Shown: positions 10,604 through 16,084 of the stretch, one piece after another
How the letters are laid out: each line of letters begins with the position of its first letter
Position numbering within the stretch: position 1 is the stretch's first letter
Assembly (NCBI RefSeq): GCF_016906995.1
Contig: NZ_JAFBBD010000006.1
Coordinates: 124,001-188,000, forward strand
DNA from: Spongiibacter marinus
Lineage (GTDB): Bacteria > Pseudomonadota > Gammaproteobacteria > Pseudomonadales > Spongiibacteraceae
Direction: 5' to 3'
Length of the DNA: 64,000 nt
Made by a program: the position numbers and the translations under genes
Notes under the pieces: generated by a model
What the model was told of the DNA's origin: nothing
The model's input: only the letters and a program-made list of their open reading frames with translations
Databases searched by the model: none

Positions 10604-10828
10604 ATGTTGATATTAACCCGACGGATAGGCGAGACCCTGATTTGCGACGACAACGGCAAGCTGGTCGAAGTGACTGTGCTGGGCGTGAAGGGCAACCAGG
10701 TGCGGCTTGGCATTGTTGCTGAAAAGGATGTGGGCGTGGACCGCGAGGAGATTTACCAGCGCAAGCAGGCCCAGAAACAAGCACCTGACATCATGACCGA
10801 CCGGCGCAAGCACCTCTCCGCCATTTAA
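10604..10828 (+). CDS. csrA: Phage-encoded CsrA/RsmA carbon storage regulator
   Basis: A 74-residue CsrA with the family pattern almost intact: [12 protein letters not shown] at the start (strand 1, with Leu4 and Arg6-7), [17 protein letters not shown] in the middle, and VDREEIYQR, whose Arg is the key RNA-contacting residue of CsrA. The rest is a basic tail. CsrA binds GGA motifs in mRNA leaders and controls translation and stability. Its own leader reads AAGGAAGGAGA (10588-10598), with two GGA motifs in the ribosome binding site, the layout of autoregulation. It follows the replication genes. Confidence 0.9.
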
Positions 10829-11717: not shown

Positions 11718-11793
11718 GTGCTTGGTGCGTATGCGAGAAGGTCAGTGGTCCCTGCTTTGGGTGAGACTATCACTCGAAGCAGGGAGGGGGGCG

Positions 11794-12129
11794 TCAATGC
11801 GCTACAGCGTGGTTGTCCTGCTTTGCTATAGGTGTGGCAACGACTTTAAGGCCAACGCCCATCGCCCCCAATACCTTACTGATGGTTTCAAATTGTGGTT
11901 TAGCGCCGACTCGCAATGCTTTATACAAACTTTCACGTCCGAGGCCGCTGGCCTGGGCGATCTGAGTCATTCCACGAGCTTTGGCAACATAGCCGACAGC
12001 TCGGATCAGCTCGTTGGTATCCCCGTCTTCCAGAACCATCGAAAGGTATTCTGCAATATCCTCTTCGCTGCGAAGCTGTTCGGCCATATCAAATTCAGTC
12101 AGGTCGCTTACTTTAATTTTGTCATTCAT
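11794..12129 (-). CDS. Antitoxin of a HigA-like addiction module (XRE type)
   Basis: A 111-residue protein with the addiction-module antidote layout. An N-terminal EFDMAEQLRSEEDIAEYLSMVLEDGD segment is followed by an XRE helix-turn-helix at about residues 50-90 (GMTQIAQASGLGRESLYKALRVGAKP). It should bind both its toxin and the operator in front of the pair. It is the second gene of the operon, three bases after the toxin stop. Toxin-first order is usual for this RelE/HigB-like family. Confidence 0.85.
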   Translation of the reverse strand: MNDKIKVSDLTEFDMAEQLRSEEDIAEYLSMVLEDGDTNELIRAVGYVAKARGMTQIAQASGLGRESLYKALRVGAKPQFETISKVLGAMGVGLKVVATPIAKQDNHAVAH

Positions 12130-12132
12130 GGT

Positions 12133-12429
12133 TCAATCCTCCAGCTGTTCAGCCAGTTTTTTAGCGGCGTCGATATCGGCCTGTTGGCTCGATTTATCTC
12201 CACCGCCGAGCATTACAATCAGTGTTTCGCCGCGCTCTACAAAGTACATTCGCCAACCGGGGCCAAAGAACTCGCGCATTTCAAAAACGCCGTCGCCCAC
12301 GGAGCTGGTGTCACCCAACAAGCCCCTAGAGGCTTTTTCCAAGCGACGAGACAAACGCAGTCGAGTTGTACTGTCTTTCAGGCCGTTAAGCCAGTCGTCG
12401 AATTCATCCAGGCGCTTTATTGTGTACAT
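12133..12429 (-). CDS. Toxin of a HigB/RelE-like addiction module
   Basis: A 98-residue toxin with the phage-derived Gp49/HigB-like pattern: an N-terminal IKRLDEFDDWLNGL, basic RLRLSRRLEKASRG, then VFEMREFFGPGWRMYFVERGETLIVMLGGGDKSSQ, the central strands of the RelE fold. The GWRMYF stretch and conserved Lys/Arg residues are those used by mRNA interferases of this group. It is transcribed leftward with the antitoxin just downstream. The operator candidate at 12439-12454 is immediately upstream of its start. It probably stabilises the prophage. Confidence 0.85.
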   Translation of the reverse strand: MYTIKRLDEFDDWLNGLKDSTTRLRLSRRLEKASRGLLGDTSSVGDGVFEMREFFGPGWRMYFVERGETLIVMLGGGDKSSQQADIDAAKKLAEQLED

Positions 12430-12438
12430 GCGGCTAGT

Positions 12439-12454
12439 GTATCCGTTTGGATAC
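12439..12454 (-). promoter_or_regulatory. Candidate operator of the toxin-antitoxin operon
   Basis: GTATCC and GGATAC flank a four-base centre, a perfect inverted repeat ten bases before the toxin start codon. Position and symmetry suit binding by the XRE antitoxin dimer. Confidence 0.6.
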
Positions 12455-12747
12455 GATTGTCAAACATTGGTTCAACAGCATGCAATTTGACAATTCTAAA
12501 TAATTATCCATACACTATCCCCGTTGCGGCAAAATCCGCAGCCGGGATTGGCGTCCCGATTCGAGCAAGAGCGCAATGGCGCTCATCCGAAGCGCTTTTT
12601 TTGTGCCCGCAGTTTATGGCGGGTGTCATGGGGGCGACTTCGGTCGCGCCGGTTCTCTTGCCCGGTAACGCCAACCCTGTGACGCCCGCCACCCTATTAA
12701 TTGGCGTTAATGGTGGCGGTTCTCTGACTCAGCAAGAGGCTACTGCC
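12455..12747 (+). promoter_or_regulatory. Long leader with terminator/antiterminator hairpins and Ash-like reading frame
   Basis: This gap precedes the palindrome gene. GAGCGC and GCGCTC pair at 12569-12584, while GCGCT (12579-12583) can instead pair with AGCGC (12591-12595), which is followed by seven T. The two hairpins exclude each other, an attenuator-like arrangement. A third hairpin at 12687-12718 (CGCCACC with GGTGGCG, inner ATTAA with TTAAT) lies just before the ribosome site. The plus frame also reads KSAAGIGVPIRARAQ and SVAPVLLPGNANPV, which resemble the Ash family of P4-like phages. Confidence 0.55.
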
Positions 12748-13407
12748 ATGAAAAACCCTACCCAAAATCCGTCCGGATTCAACGCAGATCACCTGGATAC
12801 TGTCCGCGAGCAAGGCTCAGTTGCCGTCAATCTGACGTCAACTGAAGTCAATCTGACTCCGCTTGAACCCGCTTCAGTTGACCTCAGCCTGAGGTCAACT
12901 GCCGTCAATTTGACGGCGGTTGACCATTCAGTCGATATCAATCTGATATCGGTTGAACCTTCTGCGACTGACCTCACCGAGGATTCAGTTGGGGTCAAAT
13001 TGACCCCAACTGATACCAGTTTGGTATCGACTGAGCGCGAACCATCCTTACTTTCCATTCCCGGCCTGAGCGTAAGCTGTTTGGCATCGGCTTTTCTCTA
13101 CCTGCATGTAGCCCTGGACAGCGCTATTGACTCGGTCAATGAGCGCCTGATCGACAACAGCGATCTTCCCAATGTGATGGCCCACCATATCGACGAGGTG
13201 CGCGCCGTTCTGCAACTGACGCCTTACTGTTACCTGAGCAAGCAACTGAAAGCGCTGCTGTGGTGCCTGGGCCGCCAGGCCGACCTCATGCCGGAGGGCG
13301 AGCTGGACAAAAAGGCCATGGTCACCAACCTGCACCGGGTGCAAATGAATGTGTGGCGCTGGGAAGCCAAAACCCAGCAAAGCGCGGTAGTAGGGGAGGC
13401 GGCATAA
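12748..13407 (+). CDS. Prophage protein with N-terminal palindrome-encoded repeats (219 aa)
   Basis: ATG 12748 has AAGAGGC upstream; the frame is open further upstream through the Ash-like leader, so a longer form cannot be excluded. Residues 24-96 are a run of short units of the form S-V-x-V-x-L-x-S-T, each encoded by a DNA palindrome. Residues 97-219 form a distinct helical domain (FLYLHVALDSAIDSVNERL, later YLSKQLKALLWCLGRQAD), with no known family assigned. The stop overlaps the start of the BRO-N gene, so the two proteins may work together. Function unknown; see findings. Confidence 0.7.
   Translation: MKNPTQNPSGFNADHLDTVREQGSVAVNLTSTEVNLTPLEPASVDLSLRSTAVNLTAVDHSVDINLISVEPSATDLTEDSVGVKLTPTDTSLVSTEREPSLLSIPGLSVSCLASAFLYLHVALDSAIDSVNERLIDNSDLPNVMAHHIDEVRAVLQLTPYCYLSKQLKALLWCLGRQADLMPEGELDKKAMVTNLHRVQMNVWRWEAKTQQSAVVGEAA
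12818..13033 (+). repeat. Array of about eight in-frame 27-base palindromes with covarying arms
   Basis: Units begin at 12818, 12839, 12875, 12896, 12929, 12965, 12986 and 13007, all steps being multiples of three. Each has 12-base arms and a three-base loop. Outer arms are CAGTTG or CAACTG variants; inner arms differ between units (for example ACCTCA with TGAGGT, GGGTCA with TGACCC, GATATCA with TGATATC). Units at 12875 and 12986 are perfect; the unit at 12965 is degenerate. Neighbouring units often share a CAACTG or CAGTTG end. Confidence 0.9.
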
Positions 13408-13949
13408 TGACTCAACATACCCCCATGCCCTTTCACTGGGGCCAGATCGAACTGACTCAGGCCGTATTTATCGATGGCATTCCTCATGCCACCAAAACCG
13501 CGATCGGTGAGTGGCTGGAATATGCCGAGCCGCGCAGGTGCATCAACAATATCTTAGACCGAAATTTGCACATCAATCATTACTCAGTTGACATCAAGTT
13601 GATGTCAACTGACGGCAAAAATTACGACACCAAGGTGTATCACCCCATTGGGTTTTTGCTGTTGGTGATGGAGTCCGGTCAGCCAAAAGCCCAGGCGATG
13701 AAGGTGGCGGTGGCCGAGTTTGTGTGGCATTTCGCCGGGCCAGTTAACATCAGCGACAAGGAGAGGAATGGCTACATCCGGGAGATTGAGCGGCTGACCG
13801 ATAAACTGGCTGTCTGCCGGGATGCGATGGTGTACAAGCAGACCTGGATTACCCTGCAGCACTATTGCCGCCTGGCTGCCTGGCCAATGCCAGAGCTGCC
13901 GTTGCTGGGCAAAGAACCTCAGCAGATGGTGCTGGAGGTGCTGCCATGA
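13407..13949 (+). CDS. BRO-N family phage antirepressor-like protein
   Basis: A 180-residue protein starting at ATG 13407 inside the previous stop (TAATG). Residues 10-110 resemble a phage antirepressor BRO-N domain: KTAIGEWLEYAEPRRCINNIL, then YHPIGFLLLVMESGQPKAQ and KVAVAEFVWHFAGP. The tail (NGYIREIERLTDKLAVCRDAM) is a coiled-coil-like helix. Residues 60-69 (SVDIKLMSTD) are encoded by a perfect 12-base-arm palindrome of the same kind as the array in the preceding gene. It likely counters a repressor; the target is unknown. Confidence 0.75.
   Translation: MTQHTPMPFHWGQIELTQAVFIDGIPHATKTAIGEWLEYAEPRRCINNILDRNLHINHYSVDIKLMSTDGKNYDTKVYHPIGFLLLVMESGQPKAQAMKVAVAEFVWHFAGPVNISDKERNGYIREIERLTDKLAVCRDAMVYKQTWITLQHYCRLAAWPMPELPLLGKEPQQMVLEVLP
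13585..13611 (+). repeat. Single perfect palindrome of the array family, inside the BRO-N gene
   Basis: CAGTTGACATCA (13585-13596), loop AGT, then TGATGTCAACTG (13600-13611): perfect 12-base arms. It is read in the same phase (TCA GTT GAC ATC ...) as the units of the upstream array, so it gives the same peptide pattern. Confidence 0.92.
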
Positions 13950-14682: not shown

Positions 14683-15861
14683 ATGGCTAAGGGTTGGGAA
14701 GTCCACGGTGGGATGCTGCGGGTCTATTTTTACTACAAGGGGGATAAGTGCCGGGAGCCATTGAACCTGCCGCCCACGGATCAAAACAAGGCGTATGCTG
14801 AGGGCCTGGTGGCCACCATTAAGCATGAGATTCGGCAGGGCATTTTTGACTATGCCAGCCGATTTCCCAATTCGCCGCGGTTGAAGCAAAACACCTTCGG
14901 CCACTACCTGGATATTTTCTATGAGATCAAAGCGCGCAAGGTGGCGGCGCTGACGCTGGAGAATTACCAGCGCTGGGGAAGAGGCTATATTCGCCCGCAA
15001 TGGGGCCATAGGCTGGTGGAGGATATCGACACCATCGACATCGAGAAGTGGATCAGCGCGTCCCTTGACTCGCTTGCCAGCAAAAGCATCAAAGAGATTC
15101 TGCAGATAATGTCTCAGGTGTTTGACCTTTACGGCACCCGCCACCGCGTTCACTACAATCCCACAAAGCCAATCCGGGTGGCGTTGCCTGACTCTGAAGA
15201 TCCGGATGTGTTCACGCGCCGGGAAATTAACCTGATTCTCAATACGCCCACTGAGCGTGAATCTGAGCGCAACATGACGGAGTTTTGGCTGTGGTCCGGC
15301 CCGCGCACCGCAGAGCTGATTGCGATGAGCTGGGATTATATCGACCTCGACGCCGGTATTGCCCGGTATGAAATGGGCGTGGTTGAAGGGCAGTACAAGG
15401 CGACCAAGACGCGGCGTTCAAAGCGCACGGTGGAACTGTTGAAGCCGGCTGTTGACGCGTTGCGCCGGCAGAAGGCGATTACCGGCGACCTGGAGCCGAT
15501 CACGGTTGAGATGACCGACAGGGATAACCGCACTATCCGCAAAGTGAAATTCCGGCCGGTATGGGTAAGCACCGGTACCGGCGAGCCGTTCATCCACATT
15601 AAGAGTTATCGGGAATATTGGTGGACCAATCACCTGGAGGCGGCAGGGGTTCGCTACCGGGGGCCAAGCCAGTGCCGCCACACCTTCATTAGCCAGATGC
15701 TAACGGTGGGCATGCCCATCAACTGGATTATTGCGCAGGTAGGCCACACATCCGAAGCCATGATCCGGAAGCACTACGGCAAATTCATTCAGGAAGACCA
15801 GCCGATCAACTTCTCGCAACTGGCCAACGCCAAGTTGGGGTTTACTGGGCAAGAAGAATAA
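14683..15861 (+). CDS. int: Tyrosine site-specific integrase
   Basis: A 392-residue phage integrase. The N-terminal arm-binding part (residues 1-60, GGMLRVYFYYKGDKCREPL) is of the DUF3596 type. A core-binding helical domain covers residues 70-160, and the catalytic domain starts near 170. The catalytic set is visible: Arg208 (SGPRTAEL), Arg332 with His333 (QCRHTF), His355 (VGHTSEAM) and Tyr365 (KHYGKF). The usual His three residues before the second Arg is Ser329, as in some related phage integrases. It reads toward tRNA-Ser, whose 3' end it probably uses as attachment site. Confidence 0.93.
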   Translation: MAKGWEVHGGMLRVYFYYKGDKCREPLNLPPTDQNKAYAEGLVATIKHEIRQGIFDYASRFPNSPRLKQNTFGHYLDIFYEIKARKVAALTLENYQRWGRGYIRPQWGHRLVEDIDTIDIEKWISASLDSLASKSIKEILQIMSQVFDLYGTRHRVHYNPTKPIRVALPDSEDPDVFTRREINLILNTPTERESERNMTEFWLWSGPRTAELIAMSWDYIDLDAGIARYEMGVVEGQYKATKTRRSKRTVELLKPAVDALRRQKAITGDLEPITVEMTDRDNRTIRKVKFRPVWVSTGTGEPFIHIKSYREYWWTNHLEAAGVRYRGPSQCRHTFISQMLTVGMPINWIIAQVGHTSEAMIRKHYGKFIQEDQPINFSQLANAKLGFTGQEE

Positions 15862-15996: not shown

Positions 15997-16084
15997 TGGC
16001 GGAGGGGCAGGGATTCGAACCCTGGGACGGTCGCCCGTCGCCGGTTTTCAAGACCGGTGCTTTCGACCACTCAGCCACCCCTCC
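15997..16084 (-). tRNA. serT: tRNA-Ser(UGA), prophage attachment locus
   Basis: An 88-base tRNA on the minus strand with acceptor GGAGGGG pairing CCCCTCC, discriminator G and an encoded CCA. The anticodon loop CTTGAAA between CCGGT and ACCGG gives anticodon UGA. A long variable arm is present, as in serine tRNAs. Its 3' end faces the integrase 136 bases away, so the prophage inserted at the 3' end and kept the gene whole. The att core should lie in the T-arm/acceptor region, but the second copy is outside the window. Confidence 0.95.

Follow-up and report, generated by a model that had tools for sequence, protein, structure and literature searches.

A palindrome carried in the codons of BRO-N-type phage antirepressor genes and multiplied into an array in a Spongiibacter marinus prophage-like element

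Selection on a palindrome in the codons of BRO-N-type phage antirepressor genes acts on the nucleic acid, through the pairing of the two arms and a set of fixed bases, and not on the peptide. This is a clear case of nucleic-acid pairing that shapes the amino-acid pairs of a protein family, and it calls for caution in contact prediction, since amino-acid covariation can originate in nucleic acid. The window (the 64,000-nucleotide stretch of Spongiibacter marinus DNA analysed here) carries an array of these palindromes in a small open reading frame (ORF) of a prophage-like element. It also carries one unit that the original prediction did not include, U9, inside the BRO-N-like gene that follows. 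This in-gene copy is the general form: most of the phage records examined have one site, located inside the codons of the BRO-N-type antirepressor.

The array and its operon in the window

The prophage-like element of the window encodes a phage primase and is bounded by an integrase gene (14683-15861), which adjoins a tRNA-Ser (15997-16084). The features of the operon and the units of the array are the following.

11794-12429, minus strand: toxin-antitoxin pair, beside the C4/isrK leader
12487-12516, plus strand: promoter-like site TTGACA-18-TACACT, a consensus match only
12510-12562, plus strand: c4-a1b1, the targets of C4 RNA (Rfam 51.2 bits, cut-off 46.7)
12523-12602, plus strand: isrK RNA (Rfam 58.6 bits, cut-off 50)
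12612-12696, plus strand: C4 antisense RNA (Rfam 80.4 bits, cut-off 45)
12748-13407, plus strand: array ORF, 219 aa, in the position of orf45 of Gifsy-1 (according to the available part of PMC4825925)
12818-12844, plus strand: U1, 11 of 12 Watson-Crick pairs, CAGTTGCCGTCA ATC TGACGTCAACTG
12839-12865, plus strand: U2, 9 of 12 pairs; CAACTG (12839-12844) common to U1
12875-12901, plus strand: U3, perfect, 12 of 12 pairs
12896-12922, plus strand: U4, 11 of 12 pairs; 12896-12901 common to U3
12929-12955, plus strand: U5, 10 of 12 pairs, the remaining two being G.T
about 12965-12989, plus strand: U6, shortened remnant, limits approximate and set by eye
12986-13012, plus strand: U7, perfect, 12 of 12 pairs
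13007-13033, plus strand: U8, 9 of 12 pairs; 13007-13012 common to U7
13407-13949, plus strand: BRO-N-like antirepressor gene, 180 aa (Pfam Bro-N, below cut-off)
13585-13611, plus strand: U9, perfect, within the BRO-N-like gene; the copy conserved among homologues

All three leader elements (c4-a1b1, isrK and C4 RNA) scored above their curated Rfam cut-offs upstream of the array, and the stop of the array ORF overlaps the start of the BRO-N-like gene in the sequence ATAATG (13404-13409). The window therefore has both marks of a C4/isrK-type antirepressor operon, namely isrK and C4 upstream and a short ORF that overlaps the antirepressor start. In homologue L015 a similar leader runs directly into the BRO-N gene without an intervening ORF, which marks the array ORF as an additional reading frame, placed where Gifsy-1 has orf45. 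Searches of its 219-aa product against Pfam and PHROG gave no match. Its homologues among viral contigs were near-identical copies only, the search in phages returned four weak matches (E 0.4 or worse) and the search in plasmids returned none. The downstream protein matched Pfam Bro-N (PF02498) with an E value of 0.0025 and 18.8 bits, under the cut-off of 25.6; among ten homologues put through the profile test, three passed Bro-N, two passed P22_AR_N, one fell under the Bro-N cut-off and four were unmatched. The array frame is open over 561 codons (11722-13407), antisense across the toxin-antitoxin pair and also across the C4 leader, and the element contains a gene for a CsrA-like regulator (10604-10828).

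The array of 27-base palindromes originally predicted at 12818-13033 was borne out: it comprises seven clear 27-nt palindromes (12+3+12) and one remnant, with two perfect units (U3 and U7) and one degenerate unit (U6), as had been claimed. The start-to-start steps are 21, 36, 21, 33, 57 (this step includes the remnant) and 21, all of them multiples of three. The pairs U1/U2, U3/U4 and U7/U8 each overlap by a 6-base arm end and thereby form chains, so not all hairpins could exist simultaneously. Inner triplets vary and are nevertheless paired (ACC in U3, GGG in U7 and ACA in U9). The encoded peptide is repetitive, with a 7-residue step inside chains; the pattern S-V-x-V-x-L-x-S-T, which was said to be kept, is found in some units, but an alternate S-T-x-V-x-L-x-x-V exists as well.

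Codon usage alone, which the original prediction had named as a possible source of such palindromes, did not reproduce the pairing. The eight units composed of the seven of the array and the one at 13585 present 86 of 96 pairs, against 55.0 +/- 3.6 (maximum 68) in 5000 synonymous recodings with codons drawn from the element's own codons. Three units are perfect, against at most one per recoding, and none of the 5000 recodings reached the observed pairing. Across the 64-kb window, 16 places have at least 10 of 12 pairs around a 3-base loop, and six of these are units of the array/BRO-N system. The strict unit pattern occurred at four places in the genome, all in this element, which removed a dispersed palindromic host repeat (REP- or RPE-like) from consideration. 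The genome search suggested originally found the pattern in just two of 96 genomes, this one and one congener, both with this element. The number of units, which might have varied between strains, was the same in all four copies of the element (these represent maybe just two strains); one base differs in 1461, outside the units.

Conservation of the palindrome in BRO-N and P22_AR_N homologues

Homologues of the BRO-N protein were gathered from genomes and viral contigs, and the ten codons of the site were located by protein alignment, so that the palindrome had no role in their placement. We removed 29 near-duplicates (flank identity of at least 85%) from 128 sites, which left 99 homologues; these are related sequences and the events counted over them are not independent. 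The 99 sites present a mean of 9.71 Watson-Crick pairs out of 12, with at least 10 pairs in 74 of them and a perfect palindrome in 19. The 14,256 control positions taken within 75 nt in the same genes have a mean pairing of 3.07 and none reaches 10. Similarly, 78 of the 99 sites reach a score of at least 8 versus 3 of 495 windows elsewhere in the same genes, and the palindrome is kept at the same codons across three BRO-N/P22_AR_N sets. The arms vary freely, as CAGTACCTGTCA, CAGTAGTGGTCA, CAACTGTTACCA and CAACCCAAGTCA each stand opposite their exact complement. Arms thus change together across the homologues, and the independent decay that the original prediction had asked about was not found among them. 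The aligned register holds fewer than 9 pairs in 13 of the 99; L187, L241 and L258 have a strong, slightly shifted palindrome and the rest have little or none. Across sites the loop measures 2 to 4 bases, and the common form is TCA-[GT or AC]-N2-n3-[T/C]CA-N3-TG[A/G]-n'3-N2-[AC or GT]-TGA, in which n3 and n'3 are complementary.

In the register of the site, third codon positions face third positions whereas first positions face second positions and vice versa, so that residues are tied together through the genetic code. Full dinucleotide pairing at codon positions 1-2 was found for residues 2+9 in 78 of 99 homologues, for 4+7 in 76 and for 1+10 in 71, and was lower for 3+8 (44) and 5+6 (47). 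Residues 2 and 9 were V..T in 58 homologues, T..V in 13 and G..P in four, all of which are reverse-complement partners; V..V and T..T were never found, and the rare pairs Q with W and H with C occurred once each. Residue 2 is V in 58 of the 60 sites with T at residue 9, T in 13 of the 17 with V there and G in four of the seven with P. All 50 V..T sites have a tyrosine four residues past the unit and none of the 13 T..V sites does, a count that omits eight P22_AR_N sites and in which 28 of the remaining 91 are neither V..T nor T..V. It is as if the turn after the unit set residue 9 and the pairing set residue 2.

To separate pairing from peptide, codons were permuted 2000 times among the sequences carrying the same residue in the same column. 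The silent third-third pair of residues 3 and 7 was complementary at a frequency of 0.879 versus 0.370 (sd 0.041) under this null, and that of residues 2 and 8 at 0.556 versus 0.315 (sd 0.043), values that were reached by none of the permutations. The 19 perfect units compare with a null mean of 2.2. Codon choice was also strongly biased: among the 86 sites with at least 9 pairs, unit codons 1, 4, 6, 7 and 9 carry 0.96-2.25 bits, and no other of the 36 codons reaches 0.96 (0.41-0.49 bits at unit codons 2, 3 and 8, and 0.02-0.66 at the remaining codons, including unit codons 5 and 10). Fixed-base counts were repeated on all 99 homologues and identified near-invariant silent bases: S1 is TCA in 85 of 89, T9 is ACT in 60 of 60, V9 is GTT in 17 of 17, V4 is GTC in 40 of 42 and L4 is CTC in 17 of 18. 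The original claim that selection acts on self-complementarity and not on sequence thus stands for the constraint beyond the peptide but fails for these silent bases. Moreover, L258 retains the palindrome TCAGTTGTCGTCA/TGACGACAACTGA with a 4-base loop and its first arm in a shifted reading frame.

In a structure model of the BRO-N-like protein (mean pLDDT 83), the unit covers a single strand and the first part of a turn. The fold thus has no symmetry that would demand a palindrome, and the notion that the unit encodes a symmetric beta hairpin was dropped. A search of solved structures with this model (13407-13949) gave no confident match; the top Foldseek hit was weak (DdrC, 7qvb, a Deinococcus DNA-binding protein, E 0.18).

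Among virus records, 25 of 47 have exactly one match to the pattern with one mismatch allowed, 21 have two to eight and one has none; the record with eight matches resembles the window. We re-listed 15 virus records, and the extra matches looked chance-like by eye except in the record of L179, which has a second unit. A second unit in only one of these 15 records speaks against a regulon of operators within one phage, which we rejected. With the loop set at 3 bases, five of ten named phages have 9 or more of 12 pairs at the aligned site, the palindrome of the satellite phage Javan9 being placed 12 nt away from it. The site of Pseudomonas phage UFJF_PfDIW6 has 11 of 12 pairs. With a 2-base loop, 11 of 12 pairs were found in P22 ant, 10 in E. 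coli phage N7 and 9 in Erwinia phage Midgardsormr38; these three share one codon position and differ in their inner arms. A scan restricted to 3-base loops misses the palindrome of P22 ant. Polaribacter phage Leef has a weak palindrome only, and in Nitratiruptor phage NrS-3 none stood out in the 3-base and free-loop scans. The free-loop score is less specific at these loci: among 492 background windows, 29 score at least 8 and seven score as high as P22 (9.5). A palindrome at the same place but in a different codon register seems to be present in mainstream Bro-N domains. Of 30 Bro-N loci, 28 could be placed and 21 gave a translation free of stops; in 13 of the 21, the domain had its best palindrome (8-11 pairs, loops of 3-5 bases) at offset 105-130. 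This sample is small and partly misoriented (at least three of the 13 are on the wrong strand) and is indicative only. A DNA search of E. coli genomes with L275 as the query returned no homologue.

Copies outside the antirepressor gene were searched over 1.4 kb on either side of the 99 sites, divided into four intervals of similar size. Units with the conserved core and at least 9 pairs numbered ten in the interval from -750 to -150 and zero in each of the three others. Five of the ten are from the window-like L021, two from L036 and one each from L179, L252 and L241 (the last one weak), so that extra upstream copies are present in 4-5 of the 99 elements. When any core was accepted with at least 10 pairs, the excess was smaller (7, 12, 3 and 2 across the intervals, the 12 being from -750 to -150). 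The L179 copy (2099-2125) is clearly intergenic: the open frames surrounding it are all of 53 aa or less, it is located upstream of the leader and its arms differ from those of the copy in its own gene. The scan found no promoter-like site near it. The L252 unit (976-1002) ends 14 bp ahead of the promoter-like -35 box of the antirepressor gene and is covered by a 117-aa open frame on the opposite strand. The extra units of L252 and L036 lie within short open frames of 117, 159 and 80 aa whose status is doubtful, and near the L036 units there is one promoter-like site only, on the opposite strand. At L036 (804-2462), two sRNA-Xcc1 copies and palindromic units flank a toxin-antitoxin-like pair (PIN-type by eye), and the reading frame of the antirepressor is broken directly after its unit.

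A DNA site, an RNA hairpin or a copied arm

The original prediction had offered an operator-like DNA site, an RNA hairpin and hairpin-templated repair as explanations. The first is the best fit: we suggest, with a probability just under one half (about 0.48), that the palindrome serves in the regulation of the antirepressor operon as a symmetric site in DNA. The repeated entity is a nucleic-acid element rather than a peptide, and it would be bound either in duplex form, as an inverted repeat, or after extrusion into a hairpin with a pairing stem. The antirepressor itself may be the binder, and it is a natural candidate because a site inside the gene travels with the gene when phages exchange modules; this is a guess, the loci having been collected by that gene. 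In the window, the site has been multiplied within the short coupling ORF that separates the C4/isrK leader from the antirepressor gene. This ORF would have to remain open for ribosomes to arrive at the ATAATG junction, which would account for all steps being divisible by three.

The outer and inner fixed triplets TCA/TGA are spaced ten bases apart, about one helical turn. A duplex operator for a symmetric regulator would have fixed bases and a copy at the promoter: fixed bases are present and, among the upstream copies in 4-5 of the 99 elements, that of L252 is at a promoter-like site, but the spacing is variable. Several observations run contrary to the DNA site. Units within one element have common outer bases and a different inner triplet that is still paired, and such differing but complementary triplets (U3, U7 and U9, and the two units of L179) are odd for a plain duplex operator, whose binder would not need them. 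Loops of 2, 3 and 4 bases shift the half-site spacing, which is odd as well. Finally, residues 3+8 are fully paired in only 44 of 99 homologues. The variable inner triplets and loops would favour a hairpin that must pair, or arm copying, over the plain duplex. More tentatively, the palindrome may be a cis-acting DNA hairpin (cruciform) in the codons of a protein domain, kept in phages of distant hosts, of which P22 is one, by amino-acid changes that compensate for one another. A single stretch of DNA would both encode the antirepressor and serve in its regulation, and satellites or prophages could amplify the site into arrays. Either form would be a control site that has apparently not been described so far, in lysis-lysogeny genes of a kind widespread among phages that includes P22 ant.

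A hairpin in the antirepressor mRNA, with a 12-bp stem and mostly a triloop, could instead control translation, stability or processing together with C4, isrK or sRNA-Xcc1. We consider this unlikely, although several observations agree with it. The stem covaries around a loop of 2-4 bases, the promoter-like site at 12487 would transcribe all of U1-U9, and the operon is controlled by RNA, with C4 or sRNA-Xcc1 found ahead of the gene in 13 of the 30 loci that were searched (no sRNA-Xcc1 was found upstream of the L017 gene). RNA stems are expected to tolerate G.U clearly more. Over the 99 sites, G.T mismatches (40) are not in excess of A.C mismatches (47), and neither are they in the 86 sites with at least 9 pairs (25 and 31). 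The four silent pairs alone give G.T 20 versus A.C 12 (15 versus 8 in the 86 sites), whereas the non-silent pairs of the 99 sites give A.C 35 versus G.T 20, and the silent pair 8-20 has just two G.T among 99. Furthermore, the L252 copy precedes the promoter-like site and the L179 copy precedes the leader, and no Rfam family scored above its cut-off over the unit (the array matches three microRNA models, all under their cut-offs). The missing overall G.T excess and the position of the L252 copy lean toward DNA, not firmly; the G.T lead at silent pairs and the variable loop length slightly lower the odds of a DNA site and of template switching and slightly raise those of RNA.

The palindromes might also merely look conserved, with replication template switching between arms recopying one arm onto the other and no function involved. 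Such switching is documented for yeast coding DNA (available text of PMC8604942) and was proposed for the coding palindromes of hairworm mitochondria (available text of PMC6649704). It is favoured by short spacers and would account for different but perfect units within one array. Nevertheless, we regard this explanation, and with it the hairpin-templated repair originally proposed, as improbable. It does not predict the near-invariant silent bases, and simple arm copying does not yield the observed mismatches, which concentrate at pairs 5 and 6 (44 and 46 of 99) and are fewest at pairs 7-12 (8-17 of 99). Nor does it agree with a palindrome kept at the same codons in the three BRO-N/P22_AR_N sets and so rare elsewhere in the same genes.

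Still less probable is a recombination or mobile-cassette site, that is, a structure-specific hairpin for the insertion or exchange of modules such as toxin-antitoxin genes and leaders. The extra units of L036 near two sRNA-Xcc1 matches that flank a toxin-antitoxin-like pair would agree with it, as would the toxin-antitoxin pair adjoining the leader in the window and the association of sRNA-Xcc1 with integrons in the part of the literature available, but the single pattern match in 25 of 47 virus records and the second unit in only one of the 15 re-listed ones do not. Selection of the peptide, as a repeated beta strand or symmetric hairpin with the palindrome as a by-product of the code, would be consistent with the repetitive array peptide but is ruled out for practical purposes by the codon nulls (third-third pairing above the codon-preserving null; a recoding mean of 55 versus 86 of 96 pairs), by L258, where the DNA palindrome persists in a shifted frame with a different peptide, by the single strand plus turn of the protein model and by the intergenic L179 unit.

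Relation to known systems

Intragenic operators are known from lac O2 in lacZ and gal OI. Like them, the BRO-N palindrome would be a symmetric protein-binding DNA site within codons, and some elements pair it with a site near a promoter; it differs in that its inner bases vary within an element if paired, its loop varies and it is conserved over many phages. The mitochondrial palindromes of Nematomorpha, as described in the available part of PMC6649704, are likewise perfect inverted repeats in protein-coding genes with both arms coding. Those palindromes are long, up to 284 bp, lie dispersed over genes and have come and gone between species, whereas the BRO-N palindrome is short, occupies one place in one phage gene family and has fixed silent bases. 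The same part of PMC6649704 describes the palindromic elements of Rickettsia, which are also in-frame units within genes in several copies. Their arm identity is lost over time, in contrast to BRO-N arms, which change together, and the BRO-N unit is at an orthologous codon position rather than a fresh insertion. Template-switch homogenisation in the accessible text of PMC8604942 similarly maintains the likeness of short arms across short spacers in coding DNA, but it is a mutational process and such copying does not fix silent bases.

The operon resembles isrK-orf45-anrP of Gifsy-1, in which a leader RNA and a short coupling ORF that overlaps the antirepressor start precede the antirepressor gene and translation of orf45 is required for the antirepressor (available part of PMC4825925). 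It also resembles c4-ant of phage P1, in which an antisense RNA acts on the antirepressor (available part of PMC12197685). In the window the coupling ORF bears a palindrome array, and the term 'palindrom' is absent from the available part of PMC4825925. Searches of the open-licence PMC literature found no paper that describes the palindrome in BRO-N genes, and the available part of PMC3121763 has nothing about such a site.

Several other elements were observed at the loci collected. At L049 (8719-8853), two palindromes with a TCAA-TTGA core are located 3' of an apparent capsid gene (by eye), and no BRO-N gene was noticed in the vicinity. Three CRISPR direct-repeat matches at or above the cut-off are found upstream of the BRO-N gene of L208 (680-842). 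Finally, two type II hammerhead ribozymes above the Rfam cut-off flank the BRO-N gene of L224 (1327-1393 and 2171-2238).
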